39,571 bases of DNA from contig CAKSNZ010000019.1 of assembly GCA_934476515.1 (NCBI GenBank), positions 1 through 39,571 on the forward strand, in the 5' to 3' direction. The position numbers and the translations under genes are program-made. How positions within the stretch are numbered: the stretch's first letter is position 1; the number at the start of each line of letters is the position of its first letter. Below are positions 4,780-19,676 of the stretch, in pieces. The notes beneath the pieces are model-generated. The model was given only the letters and a program-made list of their open reading frames with translations. It was not told the DNA's origin and searched no databases. The stretch comes from an uncultured Ruminococcus sp. (GTDB taxonomy: Bacteria; Bacillota; Clostridia; Oscillospirales; Acutalibacteraceae).

Positions 4780-4859
4780 AAAATAATTATATTTCTTATT
4801 AAGAATTATAATATACTTTTCTAATGATATTCTTTAATAAATAATAGGTGGTGAGCTTT

Positions 4860-5750
4860 ATGGATATAAATTTAATTAAATATTTTGTTTCTGTTGCACA
4901 GAATTTAAATTTCTCAGAGACTGCAAGGCAGAACTTTGTTTCTCAAAGTACAGTTTCAAGAGGTATCAAAGAAATGGAAAAGGAACTTGGTGCATCTCTA
5001 TTTTCTCGAACAAAGAGAAATGTTGTACTGACTCCTGAGGGAAAAGCACTTCTCCCCTATGCAATGGAAATTATTGAAAACCTTAACTCTGCAACATTTA
5101 TAATAGATAAGCTACAGAAGGGTATTGACGGTAAACTTACTGTAGGTTATGACGAAACAAGTGGACCTTATATTAGTAAATACCTACAAGGTTTTGTTTC
5201 TAAGTATCCTGACATTACAGTTGACATTAAGAAAATTCAGGTTAGTGAGGAAATTTTGGCACTTGATAACAATGAATATGACATTGTATTTATGCTTAGA
5301 GATATGATGCCTGATTCTCCGGATATTGACCATCTTGATGCTTATGATGACACACTTTCTGTTATTAGCAAAAAAGGATTACTAGCCGGTGGTGGAATTG
5401 ACTTTGACCAACTTCATCAACAAAATATTGTTTTGCTTTCCGAGGTCATCAGTCCTATTCTTTATATGGAAATTTTGGACTTATTCAGAACCTACAACAT
5501 TATTCCTAACATAGTAAACAGATATGATGATGCTCGTTCAGTAGTTACTGCAGTATCAGCCGGAATCGGTATTTCTATTTTGCCTACTTCACTATGTAGA
5601 GCAATGTTCAACAGTCAATTTGAAATTCATAGAATTAAGGGTATTGACACTTCAATTTCCTACATTATGACTTGGAATAAAGCTATGCGTAATCCCGGTA
5701 TTAAGTTGTTTCTTAAAGAGGCAAATAAGGTTAATGTTGAGGATGTTTAA
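4860..5750 (+). CDS. LysR-family transcriptional regulator
   Basis: This is a 296-residue protein with the LysR N-terminal winged helix: MDINLIKYFVSVAQNLNFSE, then ARQNFVSQSTVSRGIKEMEK and LGASLFSR, followed by a periplasmic-binding-like effector domain from about residue 90. The ATG at 4860 is chosen because AGGTGG at 4846-4851 is a good Shine-Dalgarno for it; the upstream in-frame GTG at 4848 overlaps that sequence. The gene diverges from the ketosynthase cassette and is its likely regulator through the palindrome at 4761-4779. The effector is unknown; an acyl-CoA or malonyl-CoA signal would fit the neighbours. Confidence 0.9.
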   Translation: MDINLIKYFVSVAQNLNFSETARQNFVSQSTVSRGIKEMEKELGASLFSRTKRNVVLTPEGKALLPYAMEIIENLNSATFIIDKLQKGIDGKLTVGYDETSGPYISKYLQGFVSKYPDITVDIKKIQVSEEILALDNNEYDIVFMLRDMMPDSPDIDHLDAYDDTLSVISKKGLLAGGGIDFDQLHQQNIVLLSEVISPILYMEILDLFRTYNIIPNIVNRYDDARSVVTAVSAGIGISILPTSLCRAMFNSQFEIHRIKGIDTSISYIMTWNKAMRNPGIKLFLKEANKVNVEDV

Positions 5751-5870: not shown

Positions 5871-6665
5871 TTATGAGAATAGAATTCTATCATTATCAAG
5901 GGCTTCTCTTTTCTTCATACTATACATTTGAAGAAGGTCATCCCTATTCATATTCTTTCTTTCGTTATATGGAATATCAAGAATAATCTCACCACTGTCC
6001 ATCATAATTGTACGATTACCTGTGGTAAGTGCTTGATTTAGGTTATGGGTAATCATCATTGTAGTAATATTATTTTCTGCAACAATTTGCTTAGTGATTT
6101 CCATAACTTTCTCAGCAGTTGCCGGATCTAAGGCAGCAGTATGTTCATCAAGTAACAGAAGTTTTGGAACTGCAAGTGTACACATTAGTAGTGTTACAAC
6201 TTGTCTTTGACCACCTGAAAGAAGTCCTACTTTATTCTTTAGTCTATCTTCAAGACCCATATTGTATCTTGCAAGTTGTTCTTTAAAGAATTTTCTCATT
6301 TTGTCATTTACTGCTGACTGAAAAATTCTTCTTCTGCCTTTGCTATATGCAAGAGCTAGGTTTTCTTCAATAGTCATATCAGGTGCAGTACCCTTCATAG
6401 TATCCTGAAACACTCTGCCGATTACTCTTGCTCTCTTATGTTCTTTCTTATAAGTAATATCTTCATTGTCAAGAATAATCTTGCCACTGTCACATAGGAA
6501 AGAACCACAAACAGCATTAAAAAGTGTACTTTTACCTGCACCGTTACTACCTACGATTGTAACAAAGTCACCCTTATCTAAATGAAGTGAAAGGTTGTTA
6601 AGGGCAGTATGTTCATTTACTGTACCCTTAGAAAAAACTTTAGTAACATTATTTACATCAAGCAT
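5871..6665 (-). CDS. ABC transporter ATPase (TrpZ-like)
   Basis: A 264-residue nucleotide-binding protein: Walker A GSNGAGKST, ABC signature LLSGGQRQ, Walker B LLLLDEHTAALD, H-loop MMITHN. The ATG at 6665 is chosen because GGAGGTGG stands just upstream; a longer in-frame extension to 6701 lies inside the permease gene and has no binding site. It overlaps the permease stop by 8 bp. With the LivH-like permease and the PF04392-type binding lipoprotein it matches the three-gene layout known as TrpXYZ, predicted from T-box regulons to import tryptophan. The Trp-specifier T-box upstream supports that assignment here. Confidence 0.85.
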   Translation of the reverse strand: MLDVNNVTKVFSKGTVNEHTALNNLSLHLDKGDFVTIVGSNGAGKSTLFNAVCGSFLCDSGKIILDNEDITYKKEHKRARVIGRVFQDTMKGTAPDMTIEENLALAYSKGRRRIFQSAVNDKMRKFFKEQLARYNMGLEDRLKNKVGLLSGGQRQVVTLLMCTLAVPKLLLLDEHTAALDPATAEKVMEITKQIVAENNITTMMITHNLNQALTTGNRTIMMDSGEIILDIPYNERKNMNRDDLLQMYSMKKREALDNDRILFS

Positions 6666-7581
6666 TTCTTCCACCTCCGTGTTTAATCTTAAATCTGGCA
6701 ATATAATACTTAAATGCCGGAATAGAAAGTGCTACTGCAACAATAATAGCAGTAATTAGTCTGATAACCTGGGCAGTAAAGATACCGGAATTAATTACCC
6801 AAGTAATGATAAATCTGTAGATAACTGAACCTACAATTGCAGAGATAAGACCAAGAGTAACGCCACGCTTACCCATAATAGCTTCACCGATAATTACTGA
6901 TGCCAAACCAACAACAAGGATACCGTTACCGGAAGAAATATCTGCATAACCTTGATACTGAGCAATAAAACTACCACTAAGTGCGATTAGTCCGTTAGCT
7001 AACATTAGTGCAACAATCTTGCTAACATCAACATTAATAGAAGATGCTCTAACCATATCTTCATTATTACCTGTTGCTCTTAGGCATAGACCAAAGTGTG
7101 TTCTAAAGAACCAAATCATAACAAGTACACAAACAACTACTGCAACAAATGAAAGAATCATCTTTGCATTATGTCTGCCAAAAATATCAAGACCAATATT
7201 ATCAAATAAATTATCAACTGATGTGAATACTCTTGAGTCCTTTGGAATATTTACATTTGGTGAACCAAGTATCATAAGGTTTACGCTATATAGTCCACAC
7301 ATTGAAATAATACCGGCTAAGATAGGGTGTATTCTCATCTTTGTCTGTAAAAATCCTGTTACAAAACCTGCACAACAACCGGCTAAGAAAGCAAGTAAAA
7401 TGCCTAGCCAAGAGTGGTTCTCATTTGCTACAACTGCTGATACTGCTAAACCTAAGGTAAAGCTACCCTCTGTTGTAAGGTCAGGAACATTCATTATTCT
7501 AAATGATATGTAAAGTCCAAGAGCCATAATTCCGTAAATGAAACCCAGCTCAAGTCCTCCCAAAATAACATTAAGGCTCAT
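6658..7581 (-). CDS. ABC transporter permease (TrpY-like, BPD_transp_2 family)
   Basis: This 307-residue protein with about 8-9 hydrophobic segments belongs to the LivH/RbsC-type permease family. The start LGGLELGFIYGIMALGLYIS and the EAIMGKRG segment, which resembles the coupling region, are typical of the family. It forms the membrane channel for the ATPase encoded downstream and for the lipoprotein at 8155-9147. Its Shine-Dalgarno AAGGGG is modest. It is separated from the binding-protein gene by 573 bp of hairpin repeats rather than the usual few bases, so it may depend on readthrough or on an internal promoter. Confidence 0.85.
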   Translation of the reverse strand: MSLNVILGGLELGFIYGIMALGLYISFRIMNVPDLTTEGSFTLGLAVSAVVANENHSWLGILLAFLAGCCAGFVTGFLQTKMRIHPILAGIISMCGLYSVNLMILGSPNVNIPKDSRVFTSVDNLFDNIGLDIFGRHNAKMILSFVAVVVCVLVMIWFFRTHFGLCLRATGNNEDMVRASSINVDVSKIVALMLANGLIALSGSFIAQYQGYADISSGNGILVVGLASVIIGEAIMGKRGVTLGLISAIVGSVIYRFIITWVINSGIFTAQVIRLITAIIVAVALSIPAFKYYIARFKIKHGGGRNA

Positions 7582-8154
7582 AAATAACCCCTTGTACTTC
7601 TAAATTTCTTTTGTGTTTTTATTTTTAGGACGAATATAAATTTCGCCCCTACATTGTTTTATCTATCGGATTAATCTTAGATAAACTAAAGATTGTACCA
7701 AAACAATCCCTCCGTCACCTTTGGTGACACCTCCCTTTACACAAGGGAGACTGGTAAGTTTGTTCTAATCTTAGGAATCCACATAGGAAAAAGTTTAAAT
7801 TTATCCTATTTTCCCTCCTTCCGACAAATTAGTTTCATTTAGATGGAACTAATTTCCCACCTCCCTCGTCTGAGGGAGGCTTTGTTAGTTTGTACTTAAT
7901 TTAAGTTTCGCTAACAAATGAAAGATTGTAATAAATTAATAGTCTGTTTTCTTACGGGCGAACAATTAAGTGAACATCAAAGAAAACGAGCCATAGGCGA
8001 AGTTTGATTTGCTAATGTGAACTTTTGTAGTTGCCCCTACATTGTTTTATCTATCGGATTAATCTTAGATAAACTAAAGATTGTACCAAGACAATCCCTC
8101 CGTCACCTTTGGTGACACCTCCCTTTACACAAGGGAGGCTATAAAATTTAAAAA
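7582..8154. repeat. Block of hairpin (MITE/REP-like) repeats interrupting the operon
   Basis: This intergenic block has no gene. It contains two 105-bp direct copies differing at one base (7645-7749 and 8033-8137), each with inner inverted repeats GTCACC-TTT-GGTGAC and CTCCCTT/AAGGGAG. Between them lie AATTAGTT/AACTAATT (7827-7854), CCTCCCTC-GTCT-GAGGGAGG (7860-7879) and a GGGCGAACA-type element (7953-8040). The design resembles nonautonomous hairpin repeats that are common in gut Clostridia; no transposase is present. Confidence 0.8.
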
Positions 8155-9147
8155 TTAGTTCTTTGCGTCATTAACCTGCTTAACTGTATCTTTACCAAAG
8201 TCGATACTATCTAGGTTAATACCGATAACCTTTGCGTCATCCTTATTAACTGTAATGTAGTCATAAGGTACAACGATTGATGGAATATTTTCTACCTTTT
8301 CACCTTCAAAATACTTTGCTGCTAAATCGGCAGTCTTTTCACCGATACCAATATCGTCAATAGCCTTTGTACCTAGACAACCTGAATCAACCATTGTTGC
8401 TGATGAACCGTAAACTGCAACTTTGTTTTCTCTGGCAATTTCTGTAATTGTACTCATAGCACCTTGCATAACTGCATCATTAGGAATAAAGATTGCGTCA
8501 CACTTTTTACATAGGCTTTCAACTGTTGTAGCGATTTCGCTATCTTCTACAACTGAACCTTCTGTATATTTAATATTCTTACTTTCTAGGTAATTCTTTG
8601 CCTGTTCAACTGTGTTAACGGCTGCATCTGTTTTTGAAGAATATAGTAATCCAAAGTTCTTTGCTTTTGGTGTCATCTGTTTTGCAAGGCCAAAGATTTC
8701 ATCAACAGGAATTGCATTTGATGTACCTGTTGCATTCATATCAGGCTTATCCATATCCTTAATAACACCGGCTGCTACAGGAGCAGAAACTGCACAGAAA
8801 AATACAGGAATGTCGGATTCTTGGTTTACCATACTCTGAGTTGCAGGTGTTGCAACAGTAAATACTGCATCATAGTCACCGTTAGCTACTGACTGAGTAA
8901 TTGTGTTTAGGTTTGTTTCGTCACCATCGGCACATTGATAATCAACATCCTTGTCACTAGAGATATATCCCTTAGCCTTTAGACCTTTAATGATACCTGC
9001 ACGCATATCATTAAAAGCACCGTTTTCTACTTGCTGAATAATAGCAACTTTCTTTGTTTTGCTTGATGAACCGTCACTACCGTTACAACCAACAAATAGT
9101 GTAGCCATCATTACTACAGTTAAGATTACTGCAAAAATTTTTTTCAT
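8155..9147 (-). CDS. ABC transporter substrate-binding lipoprotein (TrpX-like)
   Basis: This 330-residue secreted lipoprotein has an N-terminal MKKIFAV signal and the lipobox LFVGC at residues 17-21, so it should be anchored to the outer face of the membrane. The mature part has the two-lobed fold pattern of the PF04392 family (KKVAIIQQVENGAFNDMRAG, then VDYQCADGDETNL). Its start lies 3 bp after the dehydrogenase stop and its Shine-Dalgarno GGAGGG overlaps the end of that gene, so the two are coupled. Tryptophan, another aromatic amino acid or a derivative is the likely ligand, inferred from the Trp-type T-box and the TrpXYZ layout. Confidence 0.88.
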   Translation of the reverse strand: MKKIFAVILTVVMMATLFVGCNGSDGSSSKTKKVAIIQQVENGAFNDMRAGIIKGLKAKGYISSDKDVDYQCADGDETNLNTITQSVANGDYDAVFTVATPATQSMVNQESDIPVFFCAVSAPVAAGVIKDMDKPDMNATGTSNAIPVDEIFGLAKQMTPKAKNFGLLYSSKTDAAVNTVEQAKNYLESKNIKYTEGSVVEDSEIATTVESLCKKCDAIFIPNDAVMQGAMSTITEIARENKVAVYGSSATMVDSGCLGTKAIDDIGIGEKTADLAAKYFEGEKVENIPSIVVPYDYITVNKDDAKVIGINLDSIDFGKDTVKQVNDAKN

Positions 9148-9150
9148 TGT

Positions 9151-10260
9151 TTAACCCTCCAATAAAGTTTTTGTTTTATTATAATTTGACAACTTGTCAA
9201 AAGCATCAACTAACATTTCTTCTGTTACTGCATATGGATTGTGGTCAGCATCAGGCATTTCAAGAGTTTTCTTGATTACTGCCGGTAAATCTTTTTCTTC
9301 AATTTCTACATCAGCAATAGAAGTTGGAAGTCCCACACTCTCATTAAAATCATACATTTTCTTAAACATATCATACTGTTTATCTACTAATAAAAGAATC
9401 AGTACACCAAAACCGACAACTTCACCGTGAATATGATTTTCTTCAATATGTGGAAATGAAGTCAGTCCATAGAAAATACCATGTGCAAGACCTGTATTGT
9501 AATCTATAATATGTTCTGCTGTTAAGAGAATTGATGCAATACCTGTTGTAATAGCTATTGAAAGTACAGTTTGTTCAAACTCATAGGAATTAACCTTATT
9601 CTTATTATCTTCCAAAGCCTTCTTACCATACTTCAAAATTGGTTCAAGGCACATTTGACTGATTACAACACCAAGTCTGTGATAATGAACTAAAGTATCT
9701 TCTCCTCTTGAAGAAACAGAACTTTCAAAATACTTTGCATATGTGTCGCCCATACCTGCCCATAAATATTTTGATGGTGACTTACACAACAAGCTTGTAT
9801 TTATAAATGCATGTTTAGGTGGCTTTTCAAAGAAGAATGGTTGTTTGAAAACACCTTCCTTAGTATACATAATTGAAACACAAGTTACCGGTGAACAGTT
9901 ACTTGCTATTGTAGGAAAAGTAAAAACAGGCTTATTTATCTTTACTGCAAGACACTTTGTAGTATCAAGTGCTTTACCACCACCAACTGCAAAAAGATAA
10001 TCGGCTTTCTTTACACTTTCATTATTAGCAAGTGCATCTACATTTTCAAAACAAGACTCTCCACCATACCACACAAAGTCAATGATACTTACTTTAGTAT
10101 CTTTTGTGGCTGAGATTAATAATTCTTTTGCAGAATTAATTGCTTTGTGTCCACCGATAACAACTGCTTTGCTACCATATGGACTACAGATTTTTTCAAT
10201 TTTTTCATAAACATTATCTCCAACAGAATATGAAGGCAAGTTTATACTATAATTTTCCAT
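9151..10260 (-). CDS. Iron-containing alcohol dehydrogenase, glycerol dehydrogenase/HcxA-like
   Basis: A 369-residue group III metal-dependent dehydrogenase. The NAD(P)-binding motif is GGGKALDTTK at 93-102, then FPTIASNCSPVTCVS; the three metal ligands are D172 (GMGDTYAKYFE), H260 (GLAHGIFYGL) and H278 (HIHGEVVGFG). The ATG at 10260 follows TAGGTGAT; an upstream in-frame TTG lies in the terminator tail. The gene is the first behind a Trp-type T-box and is coupled to the transporter binding protein. It may be a glycerol dehydrogenase, but members of this family such as E. coli HcxA (YbdH) reduce 2-oxo acids. An aromatic 2-oxo acid such as indolepyruvate is an attractive inferred substrate. 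Confidence 0.85.
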   Translation of the reverse strand: MENYSINLPSYSVGDNVYEKIEKICSPYGSKAVVIGGHKAINSAKELLISATKDTKVSIIDFVWYGGESCFENVDALANNESVKKADYLFAVGGGKALDTTKCLAVKINKPVFTFPTIASNCSPVTCVSIMYTKEGVFKQPFFFEKPPKHAFINTSLLCKSPSKYLWAGMGDTYAKYFESSVSSRGEDTLVHYHRLGVVISQMCLEPILKYGKKALEDNKNKVNSYEFEQTVLSIAITTGIASILLTAEHIIDYNTGLAHGIFYGLTSFPHIEENHIHGEVVGFGVLILLLVDKQYDMFKKMYDFNESVGLPTSIADVEIEEKDLPAVIKKTLEMPDADHNPYAVTEEMLVDAFDKLSNYNKTKTLLEG

Positions 10261-10270
10261 AATATCACCT

Positions 10271-10510
10271 AACAAAAAATCCCATACGCATAAAGCGTAT
10301 GGGACGAATTATCGTGGTACCACCCAAGTTCTGATAATTCCATAAAAGAACTATCACTCTAATCTTTAACGCAGACTTACGTATTGGCTACTAAAATTTC
10401 ACCTTTCCCTCTGTGGCCCATTTGTCAGCATAGTTTCCGTAGAACTTTCACCATCTTCTACTCGCTAAAGGTCTTTTGCCGTTTTACTCCCACATCATCG
10501 GTTTGAATGG
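10271..10510 (-). promoter_or_regulatory. T-box riboswitch leader, Trp (UGG) specifier
   Basis: Read on the minus strand, the T-box core GGGTGGTACCACG lies at 10325-10313 and is followed by a terminator CCCATACGC-TTTAT-GCGTATGGG-ATTTTTTG (10303-10273). In Stem I, TGTGG (10494-10490) pairs with CCACA (10416-10412), and CGGCA (10481-10477) with TGCTG (10430-10426). They enclose a specifier loop whose 3' side is ACAAATGGG. Aligned on the known GAAA-codon-purine layout the specifier is UGG (10420-10418), Trp. Uncharged tRNA-Trp would stabilise the antiterminator and switch on the dehydrogenase-transporter operon. The UGGN variable base is U, which pairs with a G discriminator only by wobble. Confidence 0.85.
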
Positions 10511-12244: not shown

Positions 12245-14134
12245 TTATTTTGAAAGTGGAACAGTATCTGTAGTATATTTAACAATCATTGAAGACAATG
12301 ATTTTAGAGTTACTGTATCCCCTGCCTTATAACTATCACCGGAAATTTCATCTGTAAAGTCGCAAGTTGCTGTATAAGTAACATCGTTATTTAAGTTATT
12401 ATGTACAACAAACATTGAGTAATCTCTATTTTCATCTTTTACAGTATAGCTATAAACACCATCTTTAATAATTGATGTAGCATAAGTGCCTGTATAGAAA
12501 ATCTTATACTTATTTCTAATGCTAATTAGCTTTTTATAATGTTCTAGTAGGCTACCGTCAACATTTTCTTGTTCTTCAACAGAGATACCGTCATTAGCCT
12601 TAGTAAACTTTTCTGATGTGCCCCAAGAACGAACTGCGTTCATCTTTGTTGCACCTACGCCATCACGAGCGGTGTACCAATCCATTGCTTCTCTTCTGTT
12701 AGGGTCGGATGAACCACTTGTGCCACCACCGGATTGACCGATTTCGTCACCGTAGTAAACCCAAGGCATACCCTTCATTGTCATTTCAATATTAACTGCT
12801 AACTTTAATTTTGCTAAAGCAACTTGATTATCGGAATTTTTATCATAAATTTCATAACCGATTCTGTTAACATCGTGATTACTTAGCATTACAGAGTTAA
12901 TAGTAGTTTTTGATATATCAGAAGTTTTATTTGAAGCATTCTGAATTTCAGTATCATACTGAGAAATAATCCTACCTAGATTTGTCTTTGTACCGTTAAG
13001 CATCTTCTTAACTTCGCTCATATTATAAAAGTCAAAGTCAGAATCAAGGTCAGAGAAAAATCTTTCCTGTGTTTCTTGCATTGAATCCTCAGTCCATATT
13101 TCACCAACGCAGAAAGCATTTGGGTTCTTTTCTTTTACATGGCTTTCAAAATGTTGCCACCATTCATGTGTAACTGTACCTTCTTTTTCATCAACATGAA
13201 TACCATGTGAATTGATGGTATCATCAATATGTAAAGCAGCATCTAATCTAAAGCCATCAATGCCCTTACCTAACCAAAAGTCTGCAATAGAGTCAACATC
13301 ACTCCATACATCTTTATTATGATAGTTTAGGTCAGGCATACCTGCATTAAAGCAAGAATAATATCTATTTTTTCTGCTGAATGAATACTGCCATATACCG
13401 GATAATGGAGAAACACCATCATACCAAATATAGTAATCTTTATACTTATCTTTCTGTTGTTCTGAATTCTTAAACCACTGATGATTCTTTGAAGTATGGT
13501 TTACAACAAGATCCATAAGAACCTTGATACCGTTGTTGTGAAGAGTTTCCAACATATAATTAAAATCATCCATTGTACCGTAATCTTCACAAACATCGTT
13601 ATAATCTTTAATATCATAACCATGATATGAATCTGTCTTGTTAAATGGCATTAGCCAAACAACATTTACACCAAGTGACTTTAGGTAATCAACCTTTTCT
13701 GCTACGCCTCTAAAGTCACCACAACCGTCACCGTTGCTATCATAAAATGAACGAATGAAAATTTCGTAACCAACAGAAGAAGTTCTCCAGTCATTGTCTG
13801 ACTTTGCAGGGAAAGTGCTAATCTTCTTAGTTATGTACTTTTGAATGATAGTTGCATCTTTAATGTCAACTGTACCATCACCGTTAACATCGGCATAAGT
13901 TTGGTCAATAGTATCAATACTCTTGTTAAGATACTTTTGAATAGCAGTTGTATCCTTAACATTAATTTTACTGTTACCATCAGCATCACCGAATTTGTTT
14001 ACATCTAAAGTAGATGTTTCCTGTGTTTTTGGATTGGTTGCAGTGTCATTTTCATCTGCACTAACAGAAATAGTAGCAGAAGCACCGGCCACCATAGCTA
14101 AAGAAAGTAAAATTGAAATTAATTTTTTGCTCAT
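12245..14134 (-). CDS. Secreted GH13 alpha-amylase with N-terminal dockerin
   Basis: A 629-residue protein. A signal peptide (1-26) is followed by a type I-like dockerin at about 49-108: two Ca2+-binding segments, GDADGNSKINVKD and ADVNGDGTVDIKD, each followed by xIQKYL/I. The GH13 barrel begins near 120, with DLVVNH (208-213), nucleophile D298 (GFRLDAA), acid/base E345 (GEIW) and D421 (LSNHDVNR). The DSNGDGCGD loop (132-140) is the calcium-type loop of GH13_36-like and oligo-1,6-glucosidase-like enzymes. It should cleave alpha-1,4 (possibly alpha-1,6) links in starch. A dockerin in front of the catalytic domain implies attachment to a cohesin scaffold; no cohesin gene is in the window. Start: TAGGAGGTAACGCT then ATG. 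Confidence 0.93.
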   Translation of the reverse strand: MSKKLISILLSLAMVAGASATISVSADENDTATNPKTQETSTLDVNKFGDADGNSKINVKDTTAIQKYLNKSIDTIDQTYADVNGDGTVDIKDATIIQKYITKKISTFPAKSDNDWRTSSVGYEIFIRSFYDSNGDGCGDFRGVAEKVDYLKSLGVNVVWLMPFNKTDSYHGYDIKDYNDVCEDYGTMDDFNYMLETLHNNGIKVLMDLVVNHTSKNHQWFKNSEQQKDKYKDYYIWYDGVSPLSGIWQYSFSRKNRYYSCFNAGMPDLNYHNKDVWSDVDSIADFWLGKGIDGFRLDAALHIDDTINSHGIHVDEKEGTVTHEWWQHFESHVKEKNPNAFCVGEIWTEDSMQETQERFFSDLDSDFDFYNMSEVKKMLNGTKTNLGRIISQYDTEIQNASNKTSDISKTTINSVMLSNHDVNRIGYEIYDKNSDNQVALAKLKLAVNIEMTMKGMPWVYYGDEIGQSGGGTSGSSDPNRREAMDWYTARDGVGATKMNAVRSWGTSEKFTKANDGISVEEQENVDGSLLEHYKKLISIRNKYKIFYTGTYATSIIKDGVYSYTVKDENRDYSMFVVHNNLNNDVTYTATCDFTDEISGDSYKAGDTVTLKSLSSMIVKYTTDTVPLSK

Positions 14135-16670: not shown

Positions 16671-19600
16671 ATGAAAAAACAGATCTTATCTGTTGTTCTA
16701 TGCTTATCAATGTTATTGTCTATCTTTGCAATTAACCTAACAGTTAACGCAGCTACAGTCAATAAGAATGAAACAAAAGCAAGTACAACAGACAAAAAAA
16801 CTGGCGTTTCAAAAATCACAAGTGCAAATGACTTCACTTGGGACAATGCAAATGTCTATTTTCTACTAACTGACCGTTTTAAAAACGGTAACACAAGTAA
16901 TGACCACTCATATGGTCGTGCAACAGACAAAGATGGCTCTCCACTATCAGGCTGGGATACAGCTCCTGGTACATTCCATGGTGGTGACTTTGCCGGTGTT
17001 ACACAGGAAATCGAAGATGGTTACTTTGATAACTTAGGTGTAAACGCAATTTGGATTTCTGCTCCTTACGAACAGATTCACGGCTATGTCGATTCAGGTA
17101 AGGGTTTTGCCCACTATTCATACCACGGTTACTATGTTCTTGACTACACAGAAACAGATGCTAACTTTGGTACAAAAGAAGAATTCCAAACACTTGTTGA
17201 TACAGCTCATAAGCATGGTATCCGTGTTGTACTTGATATTGTTATGAACCACTCAGGCTACAATTCAGTTGCCGATATGGAAGAATATCATTTTGGTACA
17301 CTTCTTCCAGGTGCATCTGATTTCAAGTATAAACTAAACGATGTTAGTGATGTAAACAGTAACATTGACTACGAAACATCTGCTTCTGACTGGGGCAAAT
17401 GGTGGGGCAATGACTGGATTCGTTCAGGTCTTCCTGGTTATACCGGTGGTCAAGGCGGTAGCGACCTAACAAGAAGCCTAGAAGGTCTTCCTGACTTCAG
17501 AACAGAACAGACAAAGACAGTATCTATCCCTCCTATTTTAAAAACAAAATGGACTAATGAAGGTACATATGACCAGAAGGTTGCTAAATACGGCGACAAC
17601 TCAGGTAGCGTTAGTGATTACCTAACAACATGGCTTTCTGAATGGGTTTCTAAGTATGGTGTTGACGGTTTCCGTTGCGATACTGCTAAGCACGTTGAAA
17701 TGGCTTCATGGAAAAAGCTAAAAGATAAATGTGTATCTGCTCTTAAGACTTGGAGAGAGAACAACCCAACTAAGGCCGGTGCTGATTGGGATGAAGACTT
17801 CTGGATGACAGGTGAATGTTGGGATCACAACATCGGTTCTGGATATGATTCATACTTCACAGAAGGTGGATTTGACTCAATGATTAACTTTGATACATCA
17901 GGTAGTCCACTTCCTGCAGCAAGTTCAATCAATGGTAAGTTCCAACACTATGCAGATTCTATCAACTCAAACGATAAGTTTAATCAGTTAACATATATCT
18001 CTTCTCATGACTCAAATCTTGCTCGTACATCAGACATGGCATATCAGGGTTCTGCTCTAATGCTACTTCCTGGTGCTGTACAAGTTTTCTATGGTGATGA
18101 AACAAACCGTAAGACTGTTCCAGGTATGAGCTTTGACGGTCACGGTGGCAGTGGTCACTCACTAAGAAGTGATATGAACTGGGATTCAATAGATCAGGAC
18201 GAACTAGCTCACTGGCAGAAGGTTGGTACTTTCCGTAAAAACCACGTAGCAGTCGGTGCCGGTCAACATCAGCAAATTACTGCTTACAATGGTTCAACAG
18301 GTTATACATTTGCTAGAACATATGACGATGGCACTGTATCAGATAATATTATTGCAACAATCGGTGCTCCTAATAACAAGGACATTGCAGTAGATGTATC
18401 TTCACTATGGTCAGACGGTACAGAAGTAACAAATGCTTATGATGGTACAAAGGCTATGGTTACAGATGGTACTGCTACATTTAACTCAGGTGAGCATGGT
18501 ACAATTCTAATTGAAGGTCCTACATCTACAATCAATATGTCACTAAAGGGTGCTTCATCATTCTATGGTTCAGAAGAAGTTACAGTATCTCTAAAGGGTG
18601 CTGACTACGCTATGGTTTCAATTAACGGTGGTGAAGAATTCAAGGTTGTTGACGGTCAGAAGTTCACAATTGGTGAAGATATTCCGGTTGGCACAACATT
18701 TAAAGTTAAAATGACAGCTACAAATTCAGAAGAAACAGCATCTAAGTCATTCTCATTTAAGAAGAAAGACCCAGATGCAATTACAAGAGTATACTTTGAC
18801 CCATCACTAAATTGGGGTTCAACAATCTACGCTTACATTTATAATGAAAGTGGTTCATCAGTAGTTGAAAATGAAAAATGGCCTGGTCAGAAGATGACAC
18901 TTGATCCTTCAACCGGTCTATATTTAATTGAAGTTTCTGAAGAATTAAGAGATGGACAGGTTATCTTCACTGGTGGTTCAAACAGATATCCAGATGCAAG
19001 TCAGCCTGGTCTAAAGATTAATTCAACTGATATGATCTTTACTACAGGTAACCAGTGGAAAGCATATACAGGTCAAAAGCCATCTGCTACTATTCCAACA
19101 ACTCCGGACCCATCAAGTAATGTTACAGTATATTATGAAAACACAAATAATTATGCTACACCTTACGTTTACTACTGGAACAATTCAAGTGACTCTTCTT
19201 CAGTTCAGTGGCCTGGCGTTGCAATGACAAAGTATAAGGATAACATTTGGTGTGCTTCATTCCCTAAGGATAACGATATGTGTATCTTTAACAACAATGG
19301 TGGTTCACAGACAGGTAACCTAAGCATTCCTGGTGACGGTTATCTATATTCAAACGGTAAGTGGTCAAGCAGCCCATATGTAGTTCCTACAACAGCTACT
19401 ACAACTACAAAGCCAACAACAGCTACAACAGCAACAACAGCTACAAAGCCAACAACAGCTACTACTGCTACTACACCAACAGAACTTCTTGGTGATGCAA
19501 ACGGTGATGGTGTTGTTGATGTTAAGGATGCTACTTTAATTCAGAAGTATGTATCTAAGATGGCAGTAACAATCAACACAAAAGTTGCTGATGTTAATAA

Positions 19601-19676
19601 AGACGGTATGATTAATATTAAGGATACAACAATGATCCAAAAATATGCTGCTCATACTATTAACAAACTTGGCTAA
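16671..19676 (+). CDS. Secreted GH13 alpha-amylase, CBM26 x2, C-terminal dockerin
   Basis: A 1001-residue protein. Order: signal peptide (1-28, VNA-A); GH13 barrel from about 55 (VYFLLTDRFKNGN, MalS/GH13_19-like) with DIVMNH (189-194), nucleophile D337 (GFRCDTAKH), E382 (TGECWDH) and D447 (SSHDSN); an Ig-like beta module (625-700); two CBM26-like starch-binding modules (704-800 and 817-905, each with a WPG motif); a Thr/Pro linker (906-938); and a dockerin (940-1000) with GDANGDGVVDVKD and ADVNKDGMINIKD. It is probably a major raw-starch endo-amylase docked to an extracellular cohesin scaffold. The dockerin resembles that of the 12245-14134 enzyme, so the two may share a cohesin. Start follows AAAGGTAAG. 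Confidence 0.95.
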   Translation: MKKQILSVVLCLSMLLSIFAINLTVNAATVNKNETKASTTDKKTGVSKITSANDFTWDNANVYFLLTDRFKNGNTSNDHSYGRATDKDGSPLSGWDTAPGTFHGGDFAGVTQEIEDGYFDNLGVNAIWISAPYEQIHGYVDSGKGFAHYSYHGYYVLDYTETDANFGTKEEFQTLVDTAHKHGIRVVLDIVMNHSGYNSVADMEEYHFGTLLPGASDFKYKLNDVSDVNSNIDYETSASDWGKWWGNDWIRSGLPGYTGGQGGSDLTRSLEGLPDFRTEQTKTVSIPPILKTKWTNEGTYDQKVAKYGDNSGSVSDYLTTWLSEWVSKYGVDGFRCDTAKHVEMASWKKLKDKCVSALKTWRENNPTKAGADWDEDFWMTGECWDHNIGSGYDSYFTEGGFDSMINFDTSGSPLPAASSINGKFQHYADSINSNDKFNQLTYISSHDSNLARTSDMAYQGSALMLLPGAVQVFYGDETNRKTVPGMSFDGHGGSGHSLRSDMNWDSIDQDELAHWQKVGTFRKNHVAVGAGQHQQITAYNGSTGYTFARTYDDGTVSDNIIATIGAPNNKDIAVDVSSLWSDGTEVTNAYDGTKAMVTDGTATFNSGEHGTILIEGPTSTINMSLKGASSFYGSEEVTVSLKGADYAMVSINGGEEFKVVDGQKFTIGEDIPVGTTFKVKMTATNSEETASKSFSFKKKDPDAITRVYFDPSLNWGSTIYAYIYNESGSSVVENEKWPGQKMTLDPSTGLYLIEVSEELRDGQVIFTGGSNRYPDASQPGLKINSTDMIFTTGNQWKAYTGQKPSATIPTTPDPSSNVTVYYENTNNYATPYVYYWNNSSDSSSVQWPGVAMTKYKDNIWCASFPKDNDMCIFNNNGGSQTGNLSIPGDGYLYSNGKWSSSPYVVPTTATTTTKPTTATTATTATKPTTATTATTPTELLGDANGDGVVDVKDATLIQKYVSKMAVTINTKVADVNKDGMINIKDTTMIQKYAAHTINKLG

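Follow-up and report, generated by a model that had tools for sequence, protein, structure and literature searches.

A tryptophan-specifier T-box, an iron-containing dehydrogenase and a TrpXYZ-like importer form a recurrent unit in Clostridia, with a possible role in tryptophan salvage

T-box leaders switch genes on when the cognate tRNA is uncharged, i.e., when the amino acid is short. Among described systems, the trpXYZ operon of S. suis is close to the locus reported here. As in our window (the whole analysed stretch of DNA, 39,571 nucleotides), a Trp-specifier T-box there precedes a TrpX-type binding protein, a permease, and an ATPase (PMC9382623). According to the same source, S. suis trpX mRNA was induced by Trp limitation and the mutant grew poorly at low Trp. 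The main text of that paper mentions no dehydrogenase, whereas in the window a dehydrogenase gene stands directly behind the T-box.

The dehydrogenase resembles two known enzymes. With GldA it has in common the fold family, the metal ligands Asp, His, and His, and the GGGK motif, but identity is 25%, the Asp121/Thr175 pair of GldA is missing, and an insertion precedes the second metal ligand. E. coli HcxA (ybdH) is likewise GldA-like, carries Cys/Lys in place of Asp/Thr, and is regulated by how much of a single amino acid is available. It is 28% identical to the window enzyme and answers to the repressor MetJ and methionine, whereas the window enzyme stands under a T-box and tryptophan. HcxA (YbdH) is annotated as hydroxycarboxylate dehydrogenase A. 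In E. coli, ybdH adjoins the transaminase gene ybdL and belongs to the MetJ regulon, and in some other enterobacteria it lies with methylthioribose transporter genes (PMC3228920). No TrpXYZ-like importer was found in the 7 kb around E. coli hcxA. For the binding protein, the best-scoring solved relative was CD0873 of C. difficile (6hni), a Tyr-binding lipoprotein; its Glu263/Tyr279 pair is replaced in the window by Ser/Asp, and its Asp and Asn ligand contacts by Asn and by Ser or Ala (PMC6816091).

All operon genes of the window are on the minus strand. The dehydrogenase gene (9151..10260, start codon ATG at 10260) encodes 369 aa of the Cys122/Lys176 type with D172, H260, and H278 kept, as read from PF00465, NF006941, the residues, and a structure model. 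A TrpX-like substrate-binding lipoprotein (8155..9147) with an altered pocket (N144, A225, S249, D265) matched PF04392 at 186 bits and NF041285 at 243 bits and has 6hni, 3lft, and 3lkv as relatives. A TrpY-like permease (6658..7581; PF02653, 107 bits) and a TrpZ-like ABC ATPase (5871..6701; PF00005, 104 bits) follow in an order kept by relatives; the ATPase ORF overlaps the permease gene and its start is uncertain. Between the dehydrogenase stop and the ATG of the binding protein lie 3 nt, and GGAGG is found within the last codons of the dehydrogenase. The preliminary description of this DNA had called the two genes translationally coupled; the spacing and the GGAGG fit this, which makes coupling plausible. 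The binding-protein and permease genes are separated by a 573-nt gap (7582-8154), shorter in the nearest genome, which holds two 117-nt direct repeats (7645-7761 and 8033-8149, 95% alike) of an element that contains a CCTCCCT...AGGGAGG palindrome. At the end of the operon, a LysR-type regulator is encoded on the plus strand (4848-5750). Its best curated relative is AlsR, below cut-off, and it was also found in L022 (79% identity) and in the nearest genome, and was not found in the other loci compared for gene order. Elsewhere in the window, two alpha-amylases with dockerin domains (12245-14134 on the minus strand and 16671-19676 on the plus strand), one of them with CBM26 modules, suggest an amylosome-bearing starch degrader such as, presumably, Ruminococcus bromii.

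The leader matched RF00230 over its full length at 10507-10297 of the minus strand with 96.7 bits (gathering score 93, E 3.4e-20), and the equivalent element in the nearest genome, G001, whose dehydrogenase is 99% identical to that of the window, scored 96.8 bits. The T-box (10297..10507) ends 36 nt upstream of the dehydrogenase gene. The covariance-model alignment places the antiterminator bulge that pairs with the tRNA 3' end at 10319..10322 (UGGU). The tRNA-Trp of G001 ends in GCCA, so that the last pair with the UGGU of the window is G-U. The 3' half overlaps an intrinsic terminator (10273..10305) made of a hairpin followed by a U run. The hairpin showed −19.4 kcal/mol and a z of −5.6, with 0 of 200 shuffles equally stable, while the short antiterminator alone was no more stable than its shuffles (z −0.2). 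The overlap of the T-box 3' half with a strong terminator, i.e., a mutually exclusive terminator, indicates the transcription-attenuation type. The arrangement of T-box, dehydrogenase, and TrpXYZ-like genes proposed in the preliminary description, whose segment 9151-10510 covers the T-box and the dehydrogenase gene, is thus real, and its full T-box leader was borne out.

The specifier codon was read as UGG (Trp) at 10418..10420 from the specifier columns of the Rfam alignment, in agreement with the codon named earlier for this leader. The columns were calibrated on G001, which has nine T-box matches. Eight of these reach the gathering score, namely the operon's own and the seven others used for calibration; the ninth, at thrS, stays below it and outside the calibration set. 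With the downstream genes named by NCBIfam matches, the position rule gave the cognate codon in six of the seven (ilvA AUC, ilvB GUA, cysE UGC, trpE UGG, leuA CUC, and pheS UUC). At alaS it was one base off, the cognate GCC lying one base further up. Because of this slack, AUG (Met), which sits one base upstream of UGG, needed a separate exclusion. A T-box sensing methionine would also suit the UGGU of the window, which matches the A73 carried by tRNA-Met, whereas its pair with G73 is no more than G-U; this counts mildly against the Trp assignment. Three observations speak for UGG. The 4-bp helix beside the specifier is preserved by compensatory changes, with a matching partner at the expected position in 22 of 25 T-boxes, in a count for which the rule picked the wrong spot in L090; when the 3' tetramers were swapped among sequences, the mean was 9.0 and the maximum 15, and none of 500 swaps reached 22. 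The antiterminator reads UGGC in 14 of 24 relatives, which pairs with the G73 read in the tRNA-Trp of G001 and not with A73. The T-box of trpE in G001 shares the GAAUGGA core with that of the window. As the helix register is kept, UGGC suits G73, and the trpE core is identical, a Met specifier is very unlikely by sequence comparison, and we rejected it. The operon genes of L075 come after trpE/trpG-like genes, which also argues against a methionine-sensing T-box, and we regard that alternative as scarcely credible.

The dehydrogenase matched PF00465 with 68.2 bits against a cut-off of 31.3, has the metal ligands Asp, His, and His, and gave an AlphaFold model of mean pLDDT 91. Its sequence places it in the iron-containing alcohol dehydrogenase superfamily. 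None of the 13 NCBIfam models listed was matched above its curated cut-off. The glycerol dehydrogenase model NF006941 (GldA) was the best curated match, at 190.8 bits against a cut-off of 336, and 1kq3 was the best solved relative. The HcxA/YbdH model NF007880 gave 140.4 bits against 429, and the enzyme was therefore not filed as HcxA, although its Cys122/Lys176 corresponds to the Cys123/Lys177 pair of HcxA. In all 78 rows compared (the window and 77 of 80 related loci, the genes of L047, L064, and L084 having been missed in gene calling), the GldA Asp121/Thr175 pair is replaced by Cys/Lys and the ligands D172, H260, and H278 are kept. A comparison of 33 proteins gave 21 with Asp and Thr, 12 with Cys and Lys, and none in a mixed state; the 12 include the near-copy of the window enzyme from G001, and L159 was excluded for an inner stop. 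A wider search gave 15 matches, and the thirteen rows read from it (all but L182 and L183, and with one already counted) showed Cys with Lys throughout.

That the enzyme is a true glycerol dehydrogenase, standing in a Trp operon by chance, would agree with its best curated model and its best solved relative. The score far below the NF006941 cut-off and the loss of Asp121 in every row speak against this, as do the proteins of the class that do pass this cut-off, which keep Asp/Thr in all 20 read of the 21 listed. We consider this alternative highly improbable; from the sequence comparison, ordinary glycerol dehydrogenase appears ruled out as a label, and the earlier proposal of an enzyme of tryptophan physiology unlikely to act on glycerol gains from the same residues. 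An evolved glycerol dehydrogenase described in PNAS in 2011 reportedly has mutations that include D121N and F245S. A mutated glycerol dehydrogenase acts as a D-lactate dehydrogenase on pyruvate, as stated in PMC4222570. Our best guess for the substrate of the window enzyme would be a 2-oxo or 2-hydroxy acid.

The binding protein scored 243.3 bits with NF041285 (TrpX), under the curated cut-off of 390, which no match in the 118 genomes of the class exceeded. In this family, PMC6816091 gives the selectivity pairs Glu263/Tyr279 for Tyr (CD0873), Ala/Tyr for Phe (VC_1101), and Ala268/Gln284 for Trp (SP1069), and PMC9382623 names five ligand contacts as shared. In all 51 rows of binding proteins linked to the dehydrogenase (the window and 50 loci, without L047 and L080, where TrpX was found by tblastn), the selectivity pair is Ser/Asp, so that the Ala268/Gln284 pair of SP1069 is absent from all of them. 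Asp152 is replaced by Asn and Asn233 by Ser or Ala in the same 51 rows. In streptococcal TrpX, by contrast, the selectivity position is Gln and Asn233 is present, where the linked proteins have Asp and Ser or Ala. Of seven ligand positions in the pocket, four differ from those of the binders characterised for Trp, Tyr, and Phe.

As a control, TrpX-like proteins were collected from the 118 class genomes (44 matches, of which 37 genes were read, that of G001 twice), with flanks of mostly 1.5 kb and four loci at contig ends. In the 35 proteins without a dehydrogenase in these flanks, Tyr at the second selectivity position and Asn233 were present throughout, and the first position was Glu (Tyr type) in 30 and Ala (Phe type) in five. 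Asp152 was kept in 34 of the 35, L117 being the exception with Asn. The two control proteins adjoining a dehydrogenase showed Asn, Ser or Ala, Ser, and Asp. This contrast indicates that the pocket changes together with the dehydrogenase. We infer for Asp and Asn a contact with the ligand's amino group; S. pyogenes TrpX also has Asp replaced by Asn at the presumed amino-group contact, as given in PMC9382623. An interaction of the tryptophan indole NH with the Asp that stands at the Gln284 position would still be possible. The ligand may be tryptophan or an indolic acid itself, and the loss of the usual contacts leans toward a different ligand. The preliminary description had taken the TrpXYZ-like transporter as a tryptophan carrier, which these pocket differences leave unproven.

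To follow the operon among relatives, a species-genome collection was scanned with a 21-sequence alignment, which gave 212 relatives. The best 80 were kept, so the counts refer to close relatives. These 80 loci are mostly metagenome bins, and some genomes appear twice (L060/L178 at zero tree distance, L065/L179 with an identical leader, and G001 under several loci). Among the 74 loci whose downstream flank spans 1 kb or more, 49 have TrpX directly behind the dehydrogenase, and in two further loci TrpXYZ lies directly upstream. A T-box was found upstream of the related dehydrogenases in 27 of the 80 loci, and its specifier was UGG in all 27. A specifier-free pattern search for the antiterminator core with a matching 3' half found 26 of these, in two of which stem I and the antiterminator are set apart by a long insert, and Rfam added L059 (69 bits). 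Eight of the 26 reached the Rfam gathering score. Of the other 18, the 14 rescanned at a laxer threshold (all but L049, L084, L095, and L101) gave full-length RF00230 matches of 49.5 to 89.8 bits with E at most 7.3e-8. An earlier scan required AAUGG by construction and is therefore no test of the specifier; its control gave 9 matches in 2145 random windows of the same loci.

In 53 of the 80 loci a T-box was not found, by the pattern search together with Rfam in 19 (17 at the gathering score, six at E 0.01, four at both) and by the pattern search in the other 34, several of which have less than 700 nt upstream. The idea that every relative has a T-box was accordingly rejected. In several loci without a T-box, inspection by eye showed a plain promoter near the start codon. 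The genes immediately preceding the dehydrogenase of L075 are trpE- and trpG-like. The same arrangement, with UGG and an identical binding-protein signature, occurs in more distant Bacillota (L170, L179, and L185). The gene is rare in the genus of the window, with 2 of 36 genomes searched carrying it, one copy being only 47% identical. The T-box, dehydrogenase, and TrpXYZ-like importer make up one unit, which many Clostridia share, some of them lacking the T-box.

Eight loci (L023, L026-L028, L030, L031, L035, and L041) have a conserved divergent operon upstream with a radical SAM/SPASM protein (the L023 member was scanned), and only L026 among them has a T-box. Around 1501-1530 of L017 and L018 (G001), two 3' halves of tRNA-Trp were seen where ARAGORN called no gene; they are likely integration scars of mobile elements.

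A different membrane protein of about 380-400 aa adjoins the dehydrogenase in 17 of the 80 loci (L074, L076, L081, L082, L084, L086-L093, L095, L098, L100, and L101), never together with TrpXYZ. The one member scanned gave no Pfam or NCBIfam match. It may resemble YkvI and could be a transporter of tryptophan or of acids derived from it. In L164, ilvE is preceded by a fragment of a relative of this protein. In a tree of 56 rows, which takes in only 11 of the 80 loci, all Trp-linked enzymes fell into one clade of 17 rows (support 100/95), nested in a larger Cys/Lys clade; the position of HcxA is unsure owing to its long branch. One member of the 17-row clade, L077, lacks both TrpX and a T-box within the stretch examined. 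Among the Cys/Lys relatives without TrpX whose flanks were listed, 2 of 19 loci have a transaminase neighbour, the branched-chain transaminase ilvE in L164 and a PLP aminotransferase in L180. This is suggestive but makes no rule, and the neighbour in L038 is a PatB-type C-S lyase. In L180 (99-3814), the aminotransferase, the Cys/Lys dehydrogenase, and a protein without an NCBIfam match (membrane by eye) stand in one row, possibly the same logic for another amino acid.

The gene trpA was present in 21 of 33 carrier genomes searched. The 12 in which it was not found are 10 metagenome bins of unstated completeness and two isolates (L037 and L049). Trp auxotrophy as the reason for the operon is therefore unsupported; most carriers can make Trp, and the route would be a supplement in most of them.

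As the T-box raises expression at Trp shortage, the operon should supply Trp and not drain it. We tentatively favour, at a chance somewhat below even, a tryptophan-starvation operon in which an importer of an indolic acid (or of Trp) works with a dehydrogenase that turns indolelactate into indolepyruvate by oxidation, ready for transamination. Uncharged tRNA-Trp would let transcription pass through the leader. The importer would take up indole-3-lactate or indolepyruvate, or tryptophan itself, and the metal- and NAD(P)-dependent dehydrogenase, of the hydroxycarboxylate kind, would convert the 2-hydroxy acid to indolepyruvate, from which a general aminotransferase with its gene elsewhere would then form tryptophan. 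Such a salvage route would be built like that of HcxA with YbdL in the E. coli Met regulon. This reading is favoured by UGG in 27 of 27 T-boxes, TrpX downstream in 49 of 74 loci, the trpE/trpG neighbours of L075, and the single clade. It gains as well from the Cys/Lys pair as in HcxA without a mixed state among 33 proteins, from the transaminase neighbours of the Cys/Lys relatives L164 and L180, from the mutated glycerol dehydrogenase reported to work on pyruvate (PMC4222570), and from the pocket that changes with the dehydrogenase. It is weakened by an operon that lacks an aromatic transaminase, a transaminase neighbour in only 2 of 19 loci, the C-S lyase of L038, the lack of T-box matches in 53 of 80 loci (of which some have a plain promoter), trpA in 21 of 33 genomes, and L077, which sits in the clade without TrpX or T-box. 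The Asp to Asn change also occurs in S. pyogenes TrpX, as reported in PMC9382623, and in the unlinked L117. The Asp might still hold the Trp indole NH, the placement of HcxA is unsure, and the reaction is reversible. A narrower proposal, possible but doubtful in our view, is that the importer has switched from the amino acid to the hydroxy or oxo acid, so that gut and rumen Clostridia short of Trp would make it from indole-3-lactate (or indolepyruvate) under T-box control with a dedicated Cys/Lys dehydrogenase.

Two other functions fit part of the data. TrpXYZ may import Trp while the dehydrogenase acts on something else that is needed at Trp shortage, such as a small 2-oxo acid or an aldehyde, serving redox balance or the provision of precursors. 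The TrpX-like nature of the binding protein agrees with this, as does the separability of enzyme and importer, seen where the other membrane protein replaces TrpXYZ in 17 of 80 loci, and related enzymes without any Trp link exist. On the other hand, the Trp-linked enzymes group in a single clade and do not vary in their active-site residues, pointing to a single specific substrate, and the binding-protein pocket changes with the enzyme; we rate this function as rather unlikely. The preliminary description had proposed that indolepyruvate, or another 2-oxo acid, is reduced to its hydroxy acid (indolelactate in the case of indolepyruvate), with TrpXYZ importing Trp, and had called such a function undescribed for the family. 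The enzyme class and residues are equally compatible with reduction to the hydroxy acid, the reaction being reversible, but induction through the T-box comes with uncharged tRNA-Trp, at a time when the loss of Trp carbon would hurt; the response to Trp shortage was tested for S. suis trpX in PMC9382623. The reverse direction fits better, and the reductive one appears unlikely. The claim of a function undescribed for the family is likewise unsupported, as E. coli HcxA is already annotated as hydroxycarboxylate dehydrogenase A.

The listings of open-licence literature showed no report of an operon joining a T-box, this dehydrogenase, and trpXYZ, which does not establish its absence from print. 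The recurrent operon suggests an unrecognised way of making Trp from scavenged indole acids in many gut and rumen bacteria. If the salvage reading holds, it would explain a large gene group to which the name glycerol dehydrogenase is often given at present. A protein search with E up to 1e-30 as the limit retrieved 1956 proteins; beyond the best 120, which were listed, ordinary relatives may be among them. The residue signatures, Cys/Lys in the enzyme and Asn, Ser or Ala, Ser, and Asp in the binding protein, would be usable for finding other amino-acid salvage operons. Indolelactate and related indoles from gut bacteria act on the host. Carrier bacteria would then consume host-active indole made by other gut bacteria, and such a regulated bacterial sink leading back to Trp would change the understanding of indole levels.
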